Shown piece after piece: positions 1,749-57,629 of a DNA stretch of 64,000 bases (positions are counted from its first letter, which is position 1; every line of letters starts with the position of its first letter). The notes beneath the pieces were generated by a model that saw only the letters and a program-made list of their open reading frames with translations, was not told the origin of the DNA and ran no database searches. The position numbers were made by a program, and so were the translations under genes. Source of the DNA: Planctomycetota bacterium (GTDB taxonomy: Bacteria; Planctomycetota; Phycisphaerae; Phycisphaerales; UBA1924); the NCBI GenBank assembly GCA_024280755.1, contig JAJRPN010000009.1:1-64000 (forward strand). The letters run 5' to 3'.

Positions 1749-3179
1749 TCACCCTGCTTGAGCATGTTCGTCAGGGTCGATCCCGAGCTGTTTCATCTTC
1801 TTATAGAGCGTCGTTCGGTTGATGCCAAGAACATCAGCCGTCTGCTGACGGTTCCACTCGTTGGCTTCGAGTGCGCCCAGTACAAACTTGCGCTCAGGTT
1901 CGAGCATCGCATCATTGAGCGTCATTGGAATCCAAGCCTGCTCGTCTGACTGCGTGGTGATCCGCATCGGTTGTGCTTCTGATTCAAGCACGACCGGCGG
2001 CAAGTCGTCAAGCCCGATCGTCTGCGAACGCGTCAACACCGCAGCCCGCTCGACAATGTTTGACAACTCGCGTACATTGCCAGGGTACGCATAACGGCGA
2101 AGCACATCGAGCGCATCGGGGGTGAACCCGGTAAACTGTCGCCCCAACTCGCTCGCTTGCAGATCAAGGAAATGCTCAGCGAGGGTTTGGATATCGCCAA
2201 CACGCTCACGCAATGGCGGCATCTCAATCTTCACAACATTGATCCGGTAGTACAAGTCTTGACGGAACTCGCCCGATGCAACCAACTCTTCGAGCGCCTG
2301 ATTGCTCGCAAGGATCACCCGAACATCGACCTCGATCGTTTCGTTCGATCCAACAGGCTCAAACTTGCGTTCTTGAAGCACACGCAAGAGCTTGAGCTGC
2401 ATCGCCGGCGAGGCGCTGTTGATCTCATCAAGAAACAGCGTCCCGCCGTCTGCGGCGAGAAACTTGCCGACCTTGTCCGCGTGCGCCCCGGTGAATGCGC
2501 CCTTGACATGTCCGAAGAGTTCAGATTCGAGCAGCGTTTCGGGGATCGATCCGCACGCGAGTTCAACATAGGGCTGCGCCTGGCGATTCGATGCCTGATG
2601 GATCGCGCTGGCGATCATGCTTTTTCCCACACCTGATTCGCCGGTCATCAATACGGTTGTTCGAGAGTTGGCAACAGCGTGCACAGTTTCCGAAATCTTG
2701 AGCATCCGATGATCGCCTCCGACCATGTTGCCAAGCCCGAAGGTTGTTTCGAGCCGAGTCCGCATGGTGGTGTTTTCGCGGGCAAGTTCGTGATGGCGCA
2801 GTGCGCGTTCGAGCCCGAGCCGAAGCTCGTCGTCGATGACAGGCTTGGTGAGGAAATCGACCGCGCCCAATCGCAATGCTTGCACAGCCGTCTCGACGGT
2901 GCCATAGCCGGTGAGCATGATGACCGATGTTTGACGGTGTGCTTTGATAATCTCACGGAGCAGTTCAAGCCCGCCCATCTCGGGAAGGTTGATGTCGCAG
3001 ATCGCCACTTGGTATGCGCCCGCGGTGCTCTCCTTGGCTTGATTCAGTTCATGGAGCGCAGCCGACGGCGAATAGACAGCCGCCGCCTTGCACCCCTCGT
3101 TGTTAAAGAACTGTGCGAGCGAGTCAGCAACGATTGGATCGTCGTCGATAATCAGAATGCGTGGATGATCAGTGGTCAT
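1749..3179 (-). CDS. Sigma-54-dependent response regulator (NtrC/AtoC type)
   Basis: The protein has 476 residues in three domains. The receiver domain carries acidic pocket IDDDP, phosphoacceptor D62 in CDINLPEMGG, conserved Thr/Lys region LTGYG and LTKP. The AAA+ domain has Walker A GESGVGKS near 180-187, the sigma-54-contacting GAFTGA loop at about 227-232, and Walker B LFLDEI. The C-terminal Fis-type helix-turn-helix contains RQQTADVLGINRTTLYKKM. It therefore activates RpoN-dependent promoters when phosphorylated. Its start overlaps the stop of the upstream kinase gene by one base (TAATG), so the two form a coupled pair. Targets are not evident; the neighbouring pilT-like gene is possible but unsupported. 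Confidence 0.92.
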   Translation of the reverse strand: MTTDHPRILIIDDDPIVADSLAQFFNNEGCKAAAVYSPSAALHELNQAKESTAGAYQVAICDINLPEMGGLELLREIIKAHRQTSVIMLTGYGTVETAVQALRLGAVDFLTKPVIDDELRLGLERALRHHELARENTTMRTRLETTFGLGNMVGGDHRMLKISETVHAVANSRTTVLMTGESGVGKSMIASAIHQASNRQAQPYVELACGSIPETLLESELFGHVKGAFTGAHADKVGKFLAADGGTLFLDEINSASPAMQLKLLRVLQERKFEPVGSNETIEVDVRVILASNQALEELVASGEFRQDLYYRINVVKIEMPPLRERVGDIQTLAEHFLDLQASELGRQFTGFTPDALDVLRRYAYPGNVRELSNIVERAAVLTRSQTIGLDDLPPVVLESEAQPMRITTQSDEQAWIPMTLNDAMLEPERKFVLGALEANEWNRQQTADVLGINRTTLYKKMKQLGIDPDEHAQAG

Positions 3180-28076: not shown

Positions 28077-28550
28077 ATGACCAAGCCAGATCTGACACCA
28101 AAGCTCAACGCTCCCGGAGCCCGTCTGCATTCGCTTGTTGATCAAGCGCAGATTTTGATGGATCAACTCACCGTTCTGTCGGATGGGCAGAGTGAAGCCA
28201 TCGAGGGCGGCGATGTCGCACAGATCGTTGAAATCGTGAGCAAGCGAGACCCGGTTGTTCATGGGCTGGTCAATGTCGGCGAAGAAATCGGTGCATTTAT
28301 CGAAGATCCAGAGATGATCGCCAAGGTGAGCGACAACGAGCGATCGAAGGCGATGGCGAGAATCGCATCGATCGAACACGCGATGAAACGATTGCGAGAG
28401 CGTGATGCTCAAGATCAAGTACAGATGAAAGCAACCCGCGACGCGATGGCTGAGCAGTTGTCCAATATGGGGACGAATCAGTCCGCATTGCGTGCCTATT
28501 CAGGGCGTCCAAGCACGCCCAATCCCATTCTTCAAGATCGGCAAGGATGA
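28077..28550 (+). CDS. FlgN-like flagellar chaperone
   Basis: 157 residues, almost wholly helical, with the FlgN pattern. An N-terminal helix (LHSLVDQAQILMDQLTVLSDGQSEAIEGGDVAQIVEI) is followed by the KRDPVVHGLVN segment and a charged coiled coil. FlgN chaperones the hook-filament junction proteins FlgK and FlgL in the cytosol before export; those two genes are not in the window. Similarity is at the level of fold pattern and context, since it opens the flagellar operon. AAAGGG precedes the start. The stop overlaps the kinase gene (ATGA). Confidence 0.6.
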   Translation: MTKPDLTPKLNAPGARLHSLVDQAQILMDQLTVLSDGQSEAIEGGDVAQIVEIVSKRDPVVHGLVNVGEEIGAFIEDPEMIAKVSDNERSKAMARIASIEHAMKRLRERDAQDQVQMKATRDAMAEQLSNMGTNQSALRAYSGRPSTPNPILQDRQG

Positions 28551-29560
28551 TCCCTATGGCGCATGCGATAGAAGAGCAGGTTGATCAAGGCACTGATGCG
28601 ATCGGTGACGGTCTTTCGACGACAGATCTTGGTGAGCTGATGTCGGCTTTTACAGAGGTGACGACCAAACTCGAACGGACGCACGGGCAGCTTCGATCAG
28701 AAGTAAGCCGATTAAGCACAGAGTTGCATCAGGCCAATGAGGCGCTCGAACGCTCGCGCCGATTGGCTGCTTTGGGCGAGATGGCTGCTGGGATCTCGCA
28801 CGAGATCCGCAACCCGCTTGGGTCGATCCAGCTCTATGCCAATATGCTTGTCGAAGATCTTTCAGCGATGCCTGAGCAGTGTCAGATTGTTCGAAAAATC
28901 GGACGAGCGGTGCGTGGGCTTGATGAAATTGTTGGCGATGTGCTGACCTTTGCCCGAGAAATGAAGGTGCATTGGCACCCGTGCGAAACATCGGCATTGA
29001 TCGAGTGTTCGCTCGAGTTGTGCTGTGCTGAGATCGGCTCGGCTGTGATCCGATCTGATTTAGAGCATGATTCTTTCGAGCTGCTGTGCGATCCAACACT
29101 GATCCAACAGGCATTGGTCAATATTTTGCGGAACGCTGGCGAAGCCAACCGTGTGGGCGGCGGGCAAGAACTTGTGGTTTCGGTCGAAGCAGTCGTTTTC
29201 GAATCAGACAACCAGCAGGTCGAAGGCGTGAAGTTTTCGGTATGTGATCAGGGCGATGGGATGCCTGAGAATGTAATCGAACGGATGTTCAATCCATTCT
29301 TCACAACCCGCGACACGGGCACGGGGTTGGGCTTGGCGATTGTCCATCGGATTATCGAAGCCCATCAAGGCAAGGTAGAAGTAACCAATAACTGTTCGAA
29401 CAGTGGTTTAAGCACTAGTTCAGGCAGGGGTGCAACCGTCGAGTTGTATATTCCAAAGACACCTTCGTTGGTGGTCTCACGGAGCGATCAGGCTTTGGAG
29501 AGCGCAGAGATCGTGATCATGCCACAGCGTCAAGCAGTGCAAACTCATGGGGTAAGTTAA
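28547..29560 (+). CDS. Flagellar sensor histidine kinase (FleS/FlrB-like)
   Basis: 337 residues without a transmembrane segment. A coiled-coil region (residues 30-75) leads to the dimerisation domain with phosphoacceptor H85 in GISHEIRNPLGSI. The HATPase domain has N-box NILRNAGEAN, G1 CDQGDGM, FNPFFTT and G2 GTGLGLAIVH. In polar flagellates a cytosolic kinase of this type phosphorylates the sigma-54 activator of mid-level flagellar genes, and the next gene here is such an activator. Start at 28547 overlaps the previous stop; ATG 28556, with AAGGA upstream, is equally likely. Confidence 0.88.
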   Translation: MIPMAHAIEEQVDQGTDAIGDGLSTTDLGELMSAFTEVTTKLERTHGQLRSEVSRLSTELHQANEALERSRRLAALGEMAAGISHEIRNPLGSIQLYANMLVEDLSAMPEQCQIVRKIGRAVRGLDEIVGDVLTFAREMKVHWHPCETSALIECSLELCCAEIGSAVIRSDLEHDSFELLCDPTLIQQALVNILRNAGEANRVGGGQELVVSVEAVVFESDNQQVEGVKFSVCDQGDGMPENVIERMFNPFFTTRDTGTGLGLAIVHRIIEAHQGKVEVTNNCSNSGLSTSSGRGATVELYIPKTPSLVVSRSDQALESAEIVIMPQRQAVQTHGVS

Positions 29561-31138
29561 ATGTCGAAAATGATTCTTGTAGTTGATGACAAAGAAATGA
29601 TGCGCGACTCGATCGGGTCAACACTCACCCGTGCGGGCTTTGGAGTTCGTACCGCGTGCGATGCCAAGTCTGCGCTCAAAGAGATCGCTTCGCGTCGTCC
29701 AGATGCGGTGGTGACCGATCTTAATATGCCAGGCATGACCGGCATCGAACTCGCTGGTGAGATCCAAGAGATCGATGACGATCTCCCTGTGATCCTGATG
29801 ACCGCGTTTGGAACGATCGAAACAGCGGTGCAGGCGATGAAGAACGGTGCATATGATTTTATTACCAAGCCGTTTGAAGGCGATGAACTGATCATCTCGA
29901 TCAAACGCGCGATCTCGCATGCCTCGGTTGTTCGTGAAAATGCGATCCTCAAAGCCAATGTCGGGCGATCGAATCACGCGAATCGTGAAGGGCTGACAGG
30001 TTTAGATCGGCTTATTGGCGACTCGGATGCGATGCGTAAGGTTCGCGAGCAAGTGCGGGCGGTCGCGTCGAGTCATGGGACAGTATTAATCACTGGCGAG
30101 AGCGGCGTTGGCAAGGAAGTCGTTGCCCATGCGGTGCATGATTTGAGCCCTCGTATTGAGTCGCCGTTCCTCGCGGTCAACTGTGCCGCCCTCAACGAGA
30201 GTCTGCTCGAATCTGAACTTTTCGGGCACGAAAAAGGTGCTTTTACGGGTGCGGACAAGCTCCGTAAGGGGCGATTCGAGCTTGCTGATACCGGCTCGTT
30301 GTTGCTTGATGAGGTGTCGGAAGTGTCGCCTCAGATTCAGGCGAAGCTTTTGCGAGTGCTTCAAGAACGGGCTTTCGAGCGTGTTGGGTCGAGCAAGACG
30401 ATCGGTGTGGATGTGCGAATCATCGCAACAAGCAACCGAGATCTGCCACACGCAGCATCGATGGGTGAGTTCCGACAAGACTTGTTCTATAGGCTCAATG
30501 TGCTTCCGATCCAGATCCCAGCATTGCGAGAACGGCTCGCGGATGTTCCGATTTTGGCGCAATATTTTATTGATCATATCTGTCAACGAGACGGGCGAAA
30601 ATGTACCCGGTTTGATGATGGCGCGATTGATCTACTTCGTGGATATCGCTGGCCGGGCAATGTACGCGAGTTGCAAAATATCTGTGAGCGTGCGGTTGTA
30701 CTCAGCGACAGCAAGTCAACCACGATCGCTCATACACTGATCGAACCTTGGCTGATGACCTCGCGCCCGATGCCCAAGGCAACGCCTTTGCGTGCTTCGA
30801 ACATGAACGGCAACGCTTCACGAATGGCTGAAGCCAAGCCAATGAATATGCCAAGTGGGGCATCAATGGTGAGCAACGGGTTCAACTCGATGAGTTCATC
30901 GAGTGTTGCTGAACCCAAGCCAATGGGACAGAGCGGCTTTGAATCTGGACATCAGACGCAGACGCTGCCCGGAGATCGAACCTTGGCAGATCTTGAGCGA
31001 GATATGATCGTTGCGACATTGCAGCGGTTTAACGGCCATCGTCAGAAAACCGCCAAGGCACTTGGGATCGGTGTGCGAACACTTGGGCTCAAGCTCAAGA
31101 AGTGGAAAGAAGAAAGCTTGGTTTCGCCAAACCTTTGA
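29561..31138 (+). CDS. Sigma-54-dependent flagellar response regulator (FleR/FlrC-like)
   Basis: 525 residues. The receiver domain has VVDDKE, D53 in VTDLNMPGMTG and ITKPF. The AAA+ domain has Walker A GESGVGKE, sigma-54 loop GAFTGA, and Walker B LLLDEV. A variable Met/Ser-rich linker (about 395-465) follows, then a C-terminal Fis-type helix-turn-helix (GHRQKTAKALGIGVRTL). It starts immediately after the kinase stop and ends about 30 bases before a good sigma-54 promoter that drives flgB. It is therefore the likely activator of the structural genes downstream. The second sigma-54 regulator in the window (1749-3179) has a shorter linker. Confidence 0.9.
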   Translation: MSKMILVVDDKEMMRDSIGSTLTRAGFGVRTACDAKSALKEIASRRPDAVVTDLNMPGMTGIELAGEIQEIDDDLPVILMTAFGTIETAVQAMKNGAYDFITKPFEGDELIISIKRAISHASVVRENAILKANVGRSNHANREGLTGLDRLIGDSDAMRKVREQVRAVASSHGTVLITGESGVGKEVVAHAVHDLSPRIESPFLAVNCAALNESLLESELFGHEKGAFTGADKLRKGRFELADTGSLLLDEVSEVSPQIQAKLLRVLQERAFERVGSSKTIGVDVRIIATSNRDLPHAASMGEFRQDLFYRLNVLPIQIPALRERLADVPILAQYFIDHICQRDGRKCTRFDDGAIDLLRGYRWPGNVRELQNICERAVVLSDSKSTTIAHTLIEPWLMTSRPMPKATPLRASNMNGNASRMAEAKPMNMPSGASMVSNGFNSMSSSSVAEPKPMGQSGFESGHQTQTLPGDRTLADLERDMIVATLQRFNGHRQKTAKALGIGVRTLGLKLKKWKEESLVSPNL

Positions 31139-31171: not shown

Positions 31172-31187
31172 TGGTATGGGCTTTGCG
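31172..31187 (+). promoter_or_regulatory. Sigma-54 (-24/-12) promoter of flgB
   Basis: TGGTATGGGCTTTGCG fits TGGCACG-N4-TTGCA with invariant GG and GC exactly ten bases apart. It lies 24 bases before the flgB ATG and right after the gene for a sigma-54 activator. Confidence 0.75.
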
Positions 31188-32611: not shown

Positions 32612-32627
32612 TGGCGCGGTTCTCGCG
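32612..32627 (+). promoter_or_regulatory. Probable sigma-54 promoter of fliF
   Basis: TGGCGCGGTTCTCGCG: GG and GC have the correct spacing and the -24 block is good (TGGCGCG), but the -12 block is TCGC instead of TTGC. It lies downstream of the fliE terminator and about 50 bases before the fliF ATG. Confidence 0.5.
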
Positions 32628-53442: not shown

Positions 53443-55032
53443 ATGAAGCTCAAAACCTACACTGCTGAAACAATGGCCCAAGCACTCGCCCATGTCCGCA
53501 AGGACTTGGGCAAAGATGCCATGATCTTGCATACCCGTAGCTTCCGCGTTGGATCATGGCTCGGGCTCGGCGGCAAGAACATGGTCGAGATCACCGCATC
53601 GTCGCCGACGGTTGCTTCTCACCAGAAAGTTCCGCGAGTCATGCCTCAGGTTGTTCGCCAGCAGGCACCTGCACAACTGCCAGTCCAGATGCCCGCTCAA
53701 ACCATCGAAACAAAGCCCATCGTGCGCGAACCCGAGATCGTGATTCAGCGTGGTCGAACCGTAACACGCCAACGATTAACCCATGCCATGCCTACCAATG
53801 TGCAGGTTGATTTGCCTCAAGATCCATCGGCTCAGATTAATGATGAGCGCGGACTTCATGGCCGCGATGCACTCTTTGCAGACGATGCACCTCAAGTTCC
53901 ATCTCCCAAGGCACCAAGATCTCCCAAATCAAACGATCCATCAACACCAAGGTTTGCAGATCAACCAGTGGTCTCGGCCATGATCCCACAGAGCAAACCC
54001 AAGCCCAGCCCAAAGATCAATGCTCCAAAGATCAAAGGGGCAGCATCGGCTGAGACTCAAACCAACGACGAGCTGAGAAACCAGATCGATTCACTCCAAA
54101 AAATGATGGGGCAGGTTCTCGAATCAACCCGCAAGACCGCGGTCGCAGTGGGGACGGGCAATGCAGATGCAGCACTGCCCAATGGCGAGATGCCCGCCCC
54201 CCTGTTTGCGCTCTATGCGAAGATGATCGACAACGATGTACCTGTGGACCTTGCAGATAATTTGGTCGGCTCGCTGCGAGATCGGCTCGATACAATCGAA
54301 CTCAAAGACCCATTGATCGTCCGCCAAGCACTATTACGAGCAATCGAGCAGACGATCCAGGTGCGTTCTGAGTCTTTATTGACGATTGACCACAACTCAT
54401 CCACAGGTCGTCCACGCGTGATCGCATTGGTTGGACCAACTGGGGTTGGAAAAACGACCACTGTCGCTAAACTCGCTGCTACCTACAAGTTACGCCACGG
54501 AAAAAATGTTGGGTTGATCACATCTGATACCTACCGGATTGCTGCGGTTGAGCAGCTACGAACCTATGCAGGGATTATTGGATTGCCGCTCAAGGTTGCC
54601 AATACTCCAGAAGAACTCGCCCAAGCGGTCGAGGAACTGAGCGACTGCGATATCGTGGTGATTGACACTGCCGGACGATCTCAGAATGATGCCCGCAGGC
54701 TCGAAGAGCTTGCCGAGTTTACCCAAGCAGCCAATCCAGACGAAACCCATCTTGTTTTATCCACAACAGTTGGGGATAATGTTTTGAGGAAGACTGCCCA
54801 AAGATTCAAGGCTTTAGGCCCTGACCGGTGTATCCTTACCAAGCTTGATGAAGCGGTGACCACCGGACCTATTGCGGGTCTCTCTGACCGGATCGGTTTG
54901 CCGTTGAGCTTTATTACCATCGGCCAGGAAGTGCCCGATGATTTAGAGCCCGCTCGCGCCGATCGTTTGGCGCGTTGCGTGCTCGACGGCCCGGAAGCCG
55001 TGGTTCGGAGATGGAGCGAGGATAACGGATGA
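53443..55032 (+). CDS. flhF: Flagellar placement GTPase FlhF
   Basis: 529 residues from ATG 53443 (AGGA upstream); the track start at 53410 adds 11 residues. The N-terminus is the FlhF start MKLKTYTAETMAQALAHVRKDLGKDAMILHTR. The middle is a long Pro/Gln/Lys-rich disordered linker (about 60-220). The SRP-type NG domain follows, with G1 GPTGVGKTTTVAKLAA, SDTYRIAAVEQLRTYA, DTAGRSQND and LTKLDEA. FlhF recruits flagellar assembly to the pole in polar flagellates. It is coupled to flhG by a 4-base overlap. Confidence 0.93.
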   Translation: MKLKTYTAETMAQALAHVRKDLGKDAMILHTRSFRVGSWLGLGGKNMVEITASSPTVASHQKVPRVMPQVVRQQAPAQLPVQMPAQTIETKPIVREPEIVIQRGRTVTRQRLTHAMPTNVQVDLPQDPSAQINDERGLHGRDALFADDAPQVPSPKAPRSPKSNDPSTPRFADQPVVSAMIPQSKPKPSPKINAPKIKGAASAETQTNDELRNQIDSLQKMMGQVLESTRKTAVAVGTGNADAALPNGEMPAPLFALYAKMIDNDVPVDLADNLVGSLRDRLDTIELKDPLIVRQALLRAIEQTIQVRSESLLTIDHNSSTGRPRVIALVGPTGVGKTTTVAKLAATYKLRHGKNVGLITSDTYRIAAVEQLRTYAGIIGLPLKVANTPEELAQAVEELSDCDIVVIDTAGRSQNDARRLEELAEFTQAANPDETHLVLSTTVGDNVLRKTAQRFKALGPDRCILTKLDEAVTTGPIAGLSDRIGLPLSFITIGQEVPDDLEPARADRLARCVLDGPEAVVRRWSEDNG

Positions 55033-56030
55033 GCCAAGCAGTTTCGGCACACAACTCCAACCCGCATGAAGGTCCTGGGGGACAAAATCAAATGGGGCAA
55101 GCCAACGGTGACGACCAGGCATCTCGATTGCGCGAACTGGTCAGCTCATTAGGGCAGCCCAGCGTTGATGAGTTTGCGCAAGATACAAGCAAGCTTTCGC
55201 CTCCGGTTCGTCGTATCCCCATAGTTGCCATTGCATCTGGCAAAGGCGGCGTCGGCAAAACAAACACCTCGGTCAATCTCTCGATCGCACTCGCCAAACA
55301 CAACCGCCGAGCTATGTTGCTCGATGCCGATATCGGTTTGGCCAATGCTGATGTGCTTTGTGGTTTGATGCCCAAGGCAAGGCTCGAATCCGCAGTTGGC
55401 GACGCTGCTACTTTTTCACTCGAAGATCTTGCGATTGATGCTCCTGGCGGGTTTCGCCTGATCCCGGGTTCAGTCGGTATTGGTCGCGTCGGCGAACTCG
55501 ACGACGCAGAGCGCGGCGTGTTGCTCAATCGGCTCAACGATCTTCAAGCGCACAACGATGTCATCATGATCGACACCAGCGCAGGGCTCGGCCCTTCGGT
55601 GACCGCGTTTATTGATGCAGCGGACGCGTGCCTGATGGTTGTGACTCCCGAGCCAACCAGTATCGCTGATGCCTACGCCCTGATCAAGGTACTTGTTGCC
55701 CAAAGCGCCGAGCGACCCGGACACAAGCTTCCGACCTTGGCGTTGATTGTGAATCAGGCGGTCAATGAAAAGGAAGCCCAAGCGGTTCACACCCGGATCT
55801 CGGGGGTCTGCGATCGATTCCTCGGCTATCAGCTTCCGATGATCGGGTACATCCGCCGTGATAAGAAAGTGATAAAAGCGATCAAGGCGAGAACACCCTA
55901 TATGATCGACGCGCCCAAGTGCAACGCATCGCGTGATATGGGCGAACTGGCGGCATCGCTCATCGATTGGCTGGGAATCGAAGGGCGTGCGAGTGCTGCC
56001 CCCCGCCGACGATTCTTCGGGCGGGGTTAA
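55029..56030 (+). CDS. flhG: MinD-like flagellar number regulator FlhG (FleN)
   Basis: 333 residues. An N-terminal Gly/Gln-rich stretch includes the FlhF-activating-type segment DDQASRLRELVSSL (~35-48). The ParA/MinD ATPase follows: Walker A variant ASGKGGVGKTNTSVNLSI, DADIGLANADVL, IMIDTSAGLGPSV, TPEPTSIADAYALIK. FlhG limits flagellar number and, with FlhF, sets position; some homologues also curb the sigma-54 regulator. The presence of the flhF-flhG pair suggests polar placement. A terminator follows 31 bases after the stop. Confidence 0.92.
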   Translation: MSQAVSAHNSNPHEGPGGQNQMGQANGDDQASRLRELVSSLGQPSVDEFAQDTSKLSPPVRRIPIVAIASGKGGVGKTNTSVNLSIALAKHNRRAMLLDADIGLANADVLCGLMPKARLESAVGDAATFSLEDLAIDAPGGFRLIPGSVGIGRVGELDDAERGVLLNRLNDLQAHNDVIMIDTSAGLGPSVTAFIDAADACLMVVTPEPTSIADAYALIKVLVAQSAERPGHKLPTLALIVNQAVNEKEAQAVHTRISGVCDRFLGYQLPMIGYIRRDKKVIKAIKARTPYMIDAPKCNASRDMGELAASLIDWLGIEGRASAAPRRRFFGRG

Positions 56031-56060
56031 ACCATTGGAAAATCAGTAGATAGCGAGAAG

Positions 56061-56084
56061 ATCCGCAGTTGCGGATTGCTTTTT
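56061..56084 (+). terminator. Rho-independent terminator after flhG
   Basis: ATCCGC-AGTT-GCGGAT followed by TGCTTTTT. A 6-bp perfect stem with a T run, 31 bases after flhG. It probably ends the long flagellar transcript. Confidence 0.7.
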
Positions 56085-56097
56085 CGTGTGGATTCTT

Positions 56098-56113
56098 TGG
56101 CGCGTGCTTTGCG
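56098..56113 (+). promoter_or_regulatory. Sigma-54 promoter before the small membrane-protein gene
   Basis: TGGCGCGTGCTTTGCG matches TGGCACG-N4-TTGCA with correct GG/GC spacing, differing only in positions 5 and 16. It lies 14 bases after the flhG terminator and 85 bases before the ATG at 56198. Confidence 0.7.
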
Positions 56114-56197
56114 TGAAAGATCGTCAACGGGCATGATGCGCACGAAATGCGCATTGGGGCTTGTGTATGCTGATGATTCCGCCGATGGAGAGCGTGT

Positions 56198-56569
56198 ATG
56201 AGTGATTATTCTGATATTGAAATTGTGGAAGATAGCACAGCACTCGATTCGAGTGAATACCTCGCGGATATCCCGACAAAGCTGACCTCTGGTGTGCTTG
56301 GATTGATGGGATTCATGACGGCATGTCTCGTTGGACTCTTGGCGGGCAACCCGGGGATCATCATCCTCGGGCGGGCATTGATCGCGATGGTGTGCTGCGC
56401 GTTTGTCGGCAAGATCCTCGGAGCGGTCGGCGAGGTGTGTGTTCGTGAGTTTGTCAATCGGTACAAGTATGATCGCCCAGAGCCGACCATACCTCAGCAG
56501 CTTGCCGATCTGGATATGGAAAAACAGGCGCATGAGTCGATGGTCAAGAACATGAAAAAAGCTGCATAA
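56198..56569 (+). CDS. Membrane protein of unknown function with sigma-54 promoter, flagellar context
   Basis: 123 residues. An acidic N-terminus (EIVEDSTALDSSEYL) leads to two closely spaced transmembrane helices (TSGVLGLMGFMTACLVGLLAG and GIIILGRALIAMVCCAFVGKIL). A cytoplasmic charged helix near the C-terminus (QQLADLDMEKQAHESMVKNMKKAA) ends it. I do not recognise the family. The gene lies between flhG and fliA and has a good sigma-54 promoter and its own ribosome binding site, so it is probably a member of the flagellar regulon. Possible roles are a polar anchor, a motor accessory or a regulator; none can be shown here. Confidence 0.6.
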   Translation: MSDYSDIEIVEDSTALDSSEYLADIPTKLTSGVLGLMGFMTACLVGLLAGNPGIIILGRALIAMVCCAFVGKILGAVGEVCVREFVNRYKYDRPEPTIPQQLADLDMEKQAHESMVKNMKKAA

Positions 56570-56623
56570 AAAGTACATGTTTGCTACCACATCGGGCATG
56601 TTGATTTGATATACTCATGTCAG

Positions 56624-56644
56624 CCCGAGCAAGGATCGCTCGGG
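56624..56644 (+). repeat. Inverted repeat in the leader region of fliA
   Basis: CCCGAGC-AAGGATC-GCTCGGG, a 7-bp perfect stem, 131 bases before the fliA ATG at 56775. It has no T run, so it is more likely a leader structure or operator than a terminator. Confidence 0.4.
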
Positions 56645-56774
56645 GGGACAATTCACGCTTTTCGAGTTACGGGTTTGAGCACTATCGGACGGGTCAGAAA
56701 TGATCTTTGATGACGGTGAAAACCAAGTTCGATTCACGAAAAGCAACCTGTGTCAAGGGTCAAGGAGCCGACCA

Positions 56775-57629
56775 ATGACTGCGATGAGATCAAAATTTTC
56801 TTCACGCAACTCCGCACAGCATGCTGTGTCGAGCGGCCTACCTACACGCTTTGACGAAATGGAAATGCGTGATGTCTGGGTGTTGTATCAGTCGGGTTCG
56901 ACCGACGAGCTACGCAACTTCTTGATGGAGAAGTTTCTCCACCTTGTGCGATACAACGCCGAGCGGATTTATCAACGATTGCCCGATGAGGTCGACCTTG
57001 AGGACTTGATGTCCGCGGGGCTCTTTGGGTTGATGGATGCCATCGATGCCTACGACCTTGAGCGAGGCGTGAAGTTCGAGACTTACTGCGCCCCGCGTAT
57101 TCGTGGCGCGATTCTTGACGAGTTGCGTTCGATGGACTGGGTGCCCCGTTTGGTGCGTCACCGGACATCGAAGGTCGAAGCTGCCAAGCAGCAGATCCAG
57201 ATGGAACTCGGGCGCAAGGCGACTGATGTCGAAATCTCCGGGCGACTCGAAATCGACGACAACGAGTATATCAAATACAAGCGAGATTCGAGTGCTGTCT
57301 CGGTGACGAGCATCACCCGCAAGTGCTATCAGTCTGAAGGTTCGCGTGAACTCCGCGAAATCGATGTCATCAAGGACGAGCACCAGACCAGTCCGGTCAA
57401 GCTCATCCAAAGGCGTGATCTCAAAGATCTGATGACCAAAGGCTTGACCAGAGCAGAACGATTGATCGTGGTGCTGTATTACTACGAAGGCATGACGATG
57501 AAGGAGATCGGCACGACGCTCGATCTCTCCGAATCGCGTGTTTCACAGATGCACTCGTCGATCTTGGCAAGACTCAAAGCCCAGATGCAGCATCGCATGC
57601 GTGAGCTTGAGCCGATGAAAGCGAACTGA
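56775..57629 (+). CDS. fliA: Flagellar sigma factor FliA (sigma-28)
   Basis: 284 residues from ATG 56775, which has AAGGAG eight bases upstream; the track start 56700 lacks one. Region 2 includes RIYQRLPDEVDLEDLMSAGLFGLMDAIDAYD and FETYCAPRIRGAILDELRSMDWVPRLVR, characteristic of FliA/SigD/WhiG. Region 3 has GRKATDVEISGRL. Region 4 has RLIVVLYYYEGMTMKEIGTTLDLSESRVSQMHS. It directs transcription of late flagellar and motility genes. No anti-sigma factor FlgM was recognised. A strong terminator follows. Confidence 0.95.
   Translation: MTAMRSKFSSRNSAQHAVSSGLPTRFDEMEMRDVWVLYQSGSTDELRNFLMEKFLHLVRYNAERIYQRLPDEVDLEDLMSAGLFGLMDAIDAYDLERGVKFETYCAPRIRGAILDELRSMDWVPRLVRHRTSKVEAAKQQIQMELGRKATDVEISGRLEIDDNEYIKYKRDSSAVSVTSITRKCYQSEGSRELREIDVIKDEHQTSPVKLIQRRDLKDLMTKGLTRAERLIVVLYYYEGMTMKEIGTTLDLSESRVSQMHSSILARLKAQMQHRMRELEPMKAN

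Follow-up and report, generated by a model that had tools for sequence, protein, structure and literature searches.

A type 1 FlgV-like gene with its own candidate sigma-54 promoter between flhG and fliA in a planctomycete genus

The open reading frame (ORF) that separates flhG from fliA in this planctomycete of the Phycisphaerales is very probably flgV of type 1, equipped with a sigma-54 promoter of its own, through which RpoN and an NtrC-type activator would express it together with rod and basal-body genes, and followed by a fliA gene with a promoter of the housekeeping type. The FlgV family itself is known; what appears to be new is a sigma-54 promoter conserved within the genus. FlgV is a protein with two transmembrane (TM) helices that is encoded between flhG and fliA and has been described in C. 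jejuni, H. pylori and B. burgdorferi (PMC10655999, PMC11607428). In H. pylori it makes up a ring where the MS and C rings meet (PMC10655999), and in B. burgdorferi it is located in the basal body and its loss results in fewer and shorter filaments (PMC11607428). Throughout the text, the window is the whole stretch of 64,000 nucleotides of DNA that was analysed. The genes and signals that define the locus are as follows.

55029 to 56030, plus strand: flhG, a MinD-like ATPase of flagellar number control, 3' of flhF, with ParA/MinD-family Pfam and NCBIfam matches
56187 to 56190, plus strand: ribosome-binding site GGAG of flgV, read from the sequence and GATGGAG-like in most congeners
56198 to 56569, plus strand: flgV, with an ATG start, encoding a 123-residue two-TM protein of the FlgV family between flhG and fliA
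56775 to 57629, plus strand: fliA (sigma-28), passing the NCBIfam cut-off of FliA_WhiG

The identity of flhF, the remaining member of the group, is given by a match that passes the TIGR03499 cut-off.

The predicted protein and its assignment

flgV is present as a single copy in its own genome. The earlier note had described a 123-residue membrane protein with two helices, a description that agrees with the ORF, with an AlphaFold2 model built from 33 homologues and with hydropathy, which likewise gives two membrane helices. The helices of the model span residues 25-49 and 53-92 with pLDDT values mostly above 90, and above 90 in the membrane part. The protein is made of an acidic N-terminal extension, TM1 (about 29-49), TM2 (about 53-77, with Arg59) and a polar, helical cytoplasmic tail that ends in MKKAA. 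Model and hydropathy place a short periplasmic turn between the TM helices and a tail in the cytoplasm, the topology of FlgV type 1. Across the 33 aligned homologues, F39, G46 and P94 are invariant, Arg59 inside TM2 is an arginine in 29, and Lys72, a polar residue in the final part of TM2, is lysine or arginine in 19. The C-terminal peptide reads MVKNMKKAA in this genus; proteins of other families mostly have only an AA-type end.

Searches of Pfam, NCBIfam and PHROG returned no family match for the protein. NDUF_C2 (E 0.0046), TIGR03750 (E 0.0066) and other weak Pfam and NCBIfam matches were under the cut-off and were set aside as generic two-helix resemblance. In the PDB the profile matched nothing, a search by sequence gave one irrelevant match at E 1.9, and the best match by fold (E 0.57, hairpins of complexes I and IV) was not significant. 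The gene was left unassigned because Pfam and NCBIfam hold no model for it, and for the same reason FlgV has probably been overlooked in most genomes.

The assignment to FlgV rests on topology, the TM2 arginine, gene order and published descriptions of the family. An arginine in TM2 is the mark of type 1, the homologues of which include Phycisphaerae at e < 1e-5 (PMC11607428). Type 1, exemplified by BB0268 of Borrelia burgdorferi and distributed in Spirochaetota, Bacillota and PVC (PMC11607428), shares with the window protein the two TM helices with the arginine in the second, a polar cytoplasmic tail, perhaps also its basic and hydrophobic end, and the location of the gene between flhF-flhG and fliA in a flagellar superoperon. 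The window protein differs from it by an acidic N-terminal extension of about 25 residues that is specific to this group, by a tail that is helical rather than disordered, and by a putative sigma-54 promoter dedicated to the gene, whereas Borrelia flgV lies within the flgB superoperon and is reported to be sigma-70 driven. Furthermore, type 1 proteins carry an acidic residue at the start of TM2 (PMC11607428), unlike the window protein, in which this segment is N51-P52-G53; D or E near this position is found in some order-level homologues. Type 2, represented by HP1033b of Helicobacter pylori and by C. jejuni FlgV (PMC10655999), is also a small two-TM protein encoded between flhG and fliA. However, FlgV of Campylobacterota has GFFxG in TM1 and no arginine in TM2, whereas the window protein has Arg59 and a TM1 (LGLMGFMTACLVG) without GFFxG. 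The earlier note had expected a flagellar function outside the known genes; this expectation gives way to a gene that fits FlgV, with Phycisphaerae among the published homologues (PMC11607428).

A very short protein with a weak sequence signal and no family model, compared with FlgV by description, could also be an analogous two-TM anchor for the pole or for FlhF/FlhG at the membrane, similar to FlgV only in size and gene order and not homologous to it. This is the least probable of the alternatives considered here, given that the gene occupies the same slot between flhG and fliA, that the protein has the same topology and the TM2 arginine (29/33), and that FlgV homologues extend to Phycisphaerae (PMC11607428). 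An anchor of FlhG in particular fits poorly with a gene that stays beside fliA even where flhF and flhG are missing. The location of FlgV in a ring and its role are known from other bacteria, and by analogy the type 1 protein of the window may play the same role.

Distribution and gene order

The protein was found in 49 of 60 relatives besides the window genome (E <= 0.001). Almost all relatives from the family and the order with readable neighbours have the order flhF-flhG-ORF-fliA, often with a folK-like gene next. A profile search of 392 genomes across the phylum recovered the protein in 71, and most of the more distant matches that were checked, which belong to other classes, again adjoin fliA, with flhG (mostly) or flhA on the other side. 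Conservation beside flhG, the absence of which the earlier note had named as grounds for giving up its reading, is thus seen as an flhG-ORF-fliA arrangement that persists throughout the order and through most of the phylum.

We used flhA as a marker for flagellated genomes. It is present in 56 of 61 genomes. Of these, 51 have flgV, which was detected by sequence in 49 and by profile in G034 and G046. Of the five flhA genomes in which flgV was not found, G008, G020 and G027 are incomplete or fragmented assemblies, and G042 and G054 have a divergent flhA. Among the five genomes that lack flhA, four also lack flgV, and the fifth (G005) is a fragmented assembly. Since its presence and absence track flhA, flgV travels with flagella. 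Gene order and this spread support the view, already taken from the window alone, that the product is a membrane protein associated with flagella. Note that the two order-level loci with a divergent flhA (L129 in G054 and L130 in G042) have no detectable flgV between flhF/flhG and fliA and possibly belong to a different flagellar system.

In five loci (L104, L105, L126, L133 and L134), flgV is placed directly between flhA and fliA, with no flhF or flhG between them, and the link to fliA is therefore the more stable one. This adjacency and the published co-conservation of FlgV with sigma-28 (PMC11607428) would both be expected of a membrane regulator or anchor of sigma-28, a two-TM protein outside the motor ring that would retain FliA or link FliA activity to assembly. 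We consider such a function unlikely, as adjacency alone is no sign of interaction, Borrelia keeps flgV without having sigma-28 (PMC11607428), and the position of FlgV in the basal body and its ring seen by cryo-ET come from two phyla (PMC11607428, PMC10655999). We retain the assignment to the motor protein FlgV.

A sigma-54 promoter upstream of flgV

The gap between flhG and flgV contains three features.

56060 to 56087, plus strand: weak terminator-like hairpin (56060-56077) and T tail after flhG, 1 found against 0.7 expected in shuffles
56098 to 56112, plus strand: putative sigma-54 -24/-12 promoter TGGCGCGTGCTTTGC, GG-N10-GC, 85 nt 5' of flgV, aligned in 18 of 18 congeners
56137 to 56153, plus strand: palindrome TGCGCA-N5-TGCGCA, lying at about +12 to +29 relative to the expected transcription start

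The promoter sequence agrees with 11 of the 12 scored consensus positions, includes the TGGC and TTGC cores and is the only exact match to TGGCNCGNNNNTTGC in the 64 kb window. However, 29 of 100 shuffles of the window also give at least one exact match to TGGCNCGNNNNTTGC, so the match alone proves little. The site is convincing because its position upstream of flgV is shared by all 18 congeners. Its GC is usually 83-95 nt from the flgV start (full range 83-120, with one at 59), and its flanks have diverged while the site itself has not. Shuffles of individual loci give p values of 0.003 to 0.19 (the weakest cases being L020 and L021), which combine over 17 loci to about 5e-15, a value that is overstated because the loci are related and their independence is inflated. 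Both the 'almost perfect' -24/-12 promoter of the earlier note and its attribution to the membrane protein are borne out, and we infer that sigma-54 (RpoN) acts at this site. The terminator that the same note had placed before the promoter fared less well: the hairpin and T tail are there, but the structure is weak, no better than shuffles and inconsistent among congeners, only some of which show anything similar, and we rejected it as a conserved feature. In the whole genome, 53 sequences match TGGCNNGNNNNTTGC and 27 match the reversed control, so that about half of such matches are background.

In relatives outside the genus, the -24/-12 site was not seen in the gap upstream of flgV; the dedicated promoter would then be a variant of regulation that, in the material examined, is confined to this genus. 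The same observation, the often short gap in those relatives, the weak terminator and the 29% of shuffled windows that hold such a site would all be in line with a fortuitous match and with expression of flgV by readthrough from the flhB-flhA-flhF-flhG operon. Chance and readthrough are nevertheless a very unlikely account of a site that all 18 congeners have at a nearly constant distance between diverged flanks, with a palindrome at a fixed distance from it. Overall, a sigma-54 promoter of flgV is the reading that we carry forward.

Between the -12 element and the start of the palindrome there are 24 nt. Of the 18 congeners, to which this count refers, 17 have the core CGCA-N5-TGCG at a distance of 21-26 nt from the same element, with spacer letters that vary. 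In its exact form, TGCGCA-N5-TGCGCA, the palindrome has just two occurrences in the 3.0 Mb assembly. The palindrome may be an operator or enhancer, or a 5'-proximal hairpin in the RNA. As DNA it fits TGC-N11-GCA, the form of NtrC-type sites, and as RNA it would fold into a hairpin that starts some 12 nt from the 5' end. The counts of paired positions mildly favour pairing, but a palindrome conserved as DNA would produce an identical signal, and these counts cannot tell the operator from the hairpin. A role as a regulon-wide site for a sigma-54 activator was rejected, as among 30 exact -24/-12 loci inspected in the genome only flgV has it. A copy with one mismatch, TGCGCAGAATCTGCGCG, is situated between csrA and a fliW-like gene (G000:C25:47128-47283; L158, L159).

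RpoN, activators and other candidate sites

The assembly encodes RpoN and four strong sigma-54 activators, two of them in the window. One is encoded with a kinase just 5' of flgB.

28547 to 29560, plus strand: histidine kinase in an FlgS-like position, with HisKA and HATPase_c, kept in 11 of 11 congener loci
29561 to 31138, plus strand: NtrC-family sigma-54 activator with receiver, AAA+ and Fis-type HTH, a candidate for flgV and flgB
31172 to 31186, plus strand: second candidate sigma-54 promoter, TGGTATGGGCTTTGC, GG-N10-GC, 10-24 nt before flgB in 12 of 12 loci compared

In all 11 congener loci the activator is 70-91% identical and is encoded next to the kinase. In the FlgS-FlgR/RpoN circuit of Campylobacterota, a kinase, an NtrC-type activator and RpoN control the middle flagellar genes. 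The same three components are present here; the pair differs in lying directly 5' of flgB, and its targets are presumptive. Most likely, RpoN and an NtrC-type activator turn flgV on with the rod and basal-body genes, and the activator is probably the one encoded with this kinase. Since the palindrome was not found at flgB, an activator shared by flgV and flgB is unproven. Another NtrC-family response regulator is encoded on the minus strand of the window (1749-3179).

Two further sequences were considered. At 32612-32626, about 50 nt before the likely start of fliF (32678) and after a terminator-like hairpin, TGGCGCGGTTCTCGC may be yet another sigma-54 promoter, in which TCGC replaces TTGC, and similar sites are found in about half of the congeners. 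A candidate before fliE, TGGCACAGGCATTGCG, is also conserved in congeners, but it falls within the conserved 3' end of flgC (MLAQALR codons); conservation of the protein accounts for that of the site, which we rejected.

The fliA gene and its leader

Conserved elements also occupy the leader of fliA.

56607 to 56615, plus strand: conserved extended -10 TGATATACT of a putative sigma-70-type fliA promoter, from the flgV-fliA gap aligned in 18 congeners
56624 to 56644, plus strand: leader hairpin CCCGAGC-AAGGATC-GCTCGGG with GGA in the loop, a CsrA-like site with compensatory stem changes
56757 to 56772, plus strand: second hairpin GGTC-AAGGAGCC-GACC with the fliA Shine-Dalgarno in the loop

The start of fliA is most likely at 56775 and not at 56700, since the Shine-Dalgarno and ATG of the former are conserved. 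fliA would keep a separate promoter of the housekeeping type, and with a conserved extended -10 of its own before fliA, flgV and fliA look uncoupled. Rfam returned nothing in 55900-57000. In 14 aligned congeners, the loop AAGGA of the leader hairpin is invariant and changes in its stem are compensatory. The genome has two csrA genes, one of which adjoins a gene that resembles fliW on visual inspection. The candidate leader sites and these genes suggest that CsrA may control the sigma-28 mRNA. In one congener (L010), tandem repeats of TTGTCAAGGGCCAG multiply AAGGG motifs in the fliA leader.

Implications

It is possible, though we offer this only tentatively, that in this genus flgV left the flhBAFG operon and became a sigma-54 unit by itself, with a palindrome positioned within the first 30 bases of its transcript, sigma-28 keeping its own promoter and a CsrA-type leader. 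The dosage of FlgV would then follow the timing of rod and basal-body assembly without depending on FliA, and the protein would be a regulated checkpoint component and not a constitutive structural part. Flagellated planctomycetes repeatedly carry this gene, which had no annotation; the analysis gives it a name and assigns it, at the strength stated above, to a family of flagellar ring proteins that was defined only recently. The regulation of planctomycete flagella has been little studied, and the putative promoter, the palindrome and the fliA leader provide concrete sites at which it can be tested.
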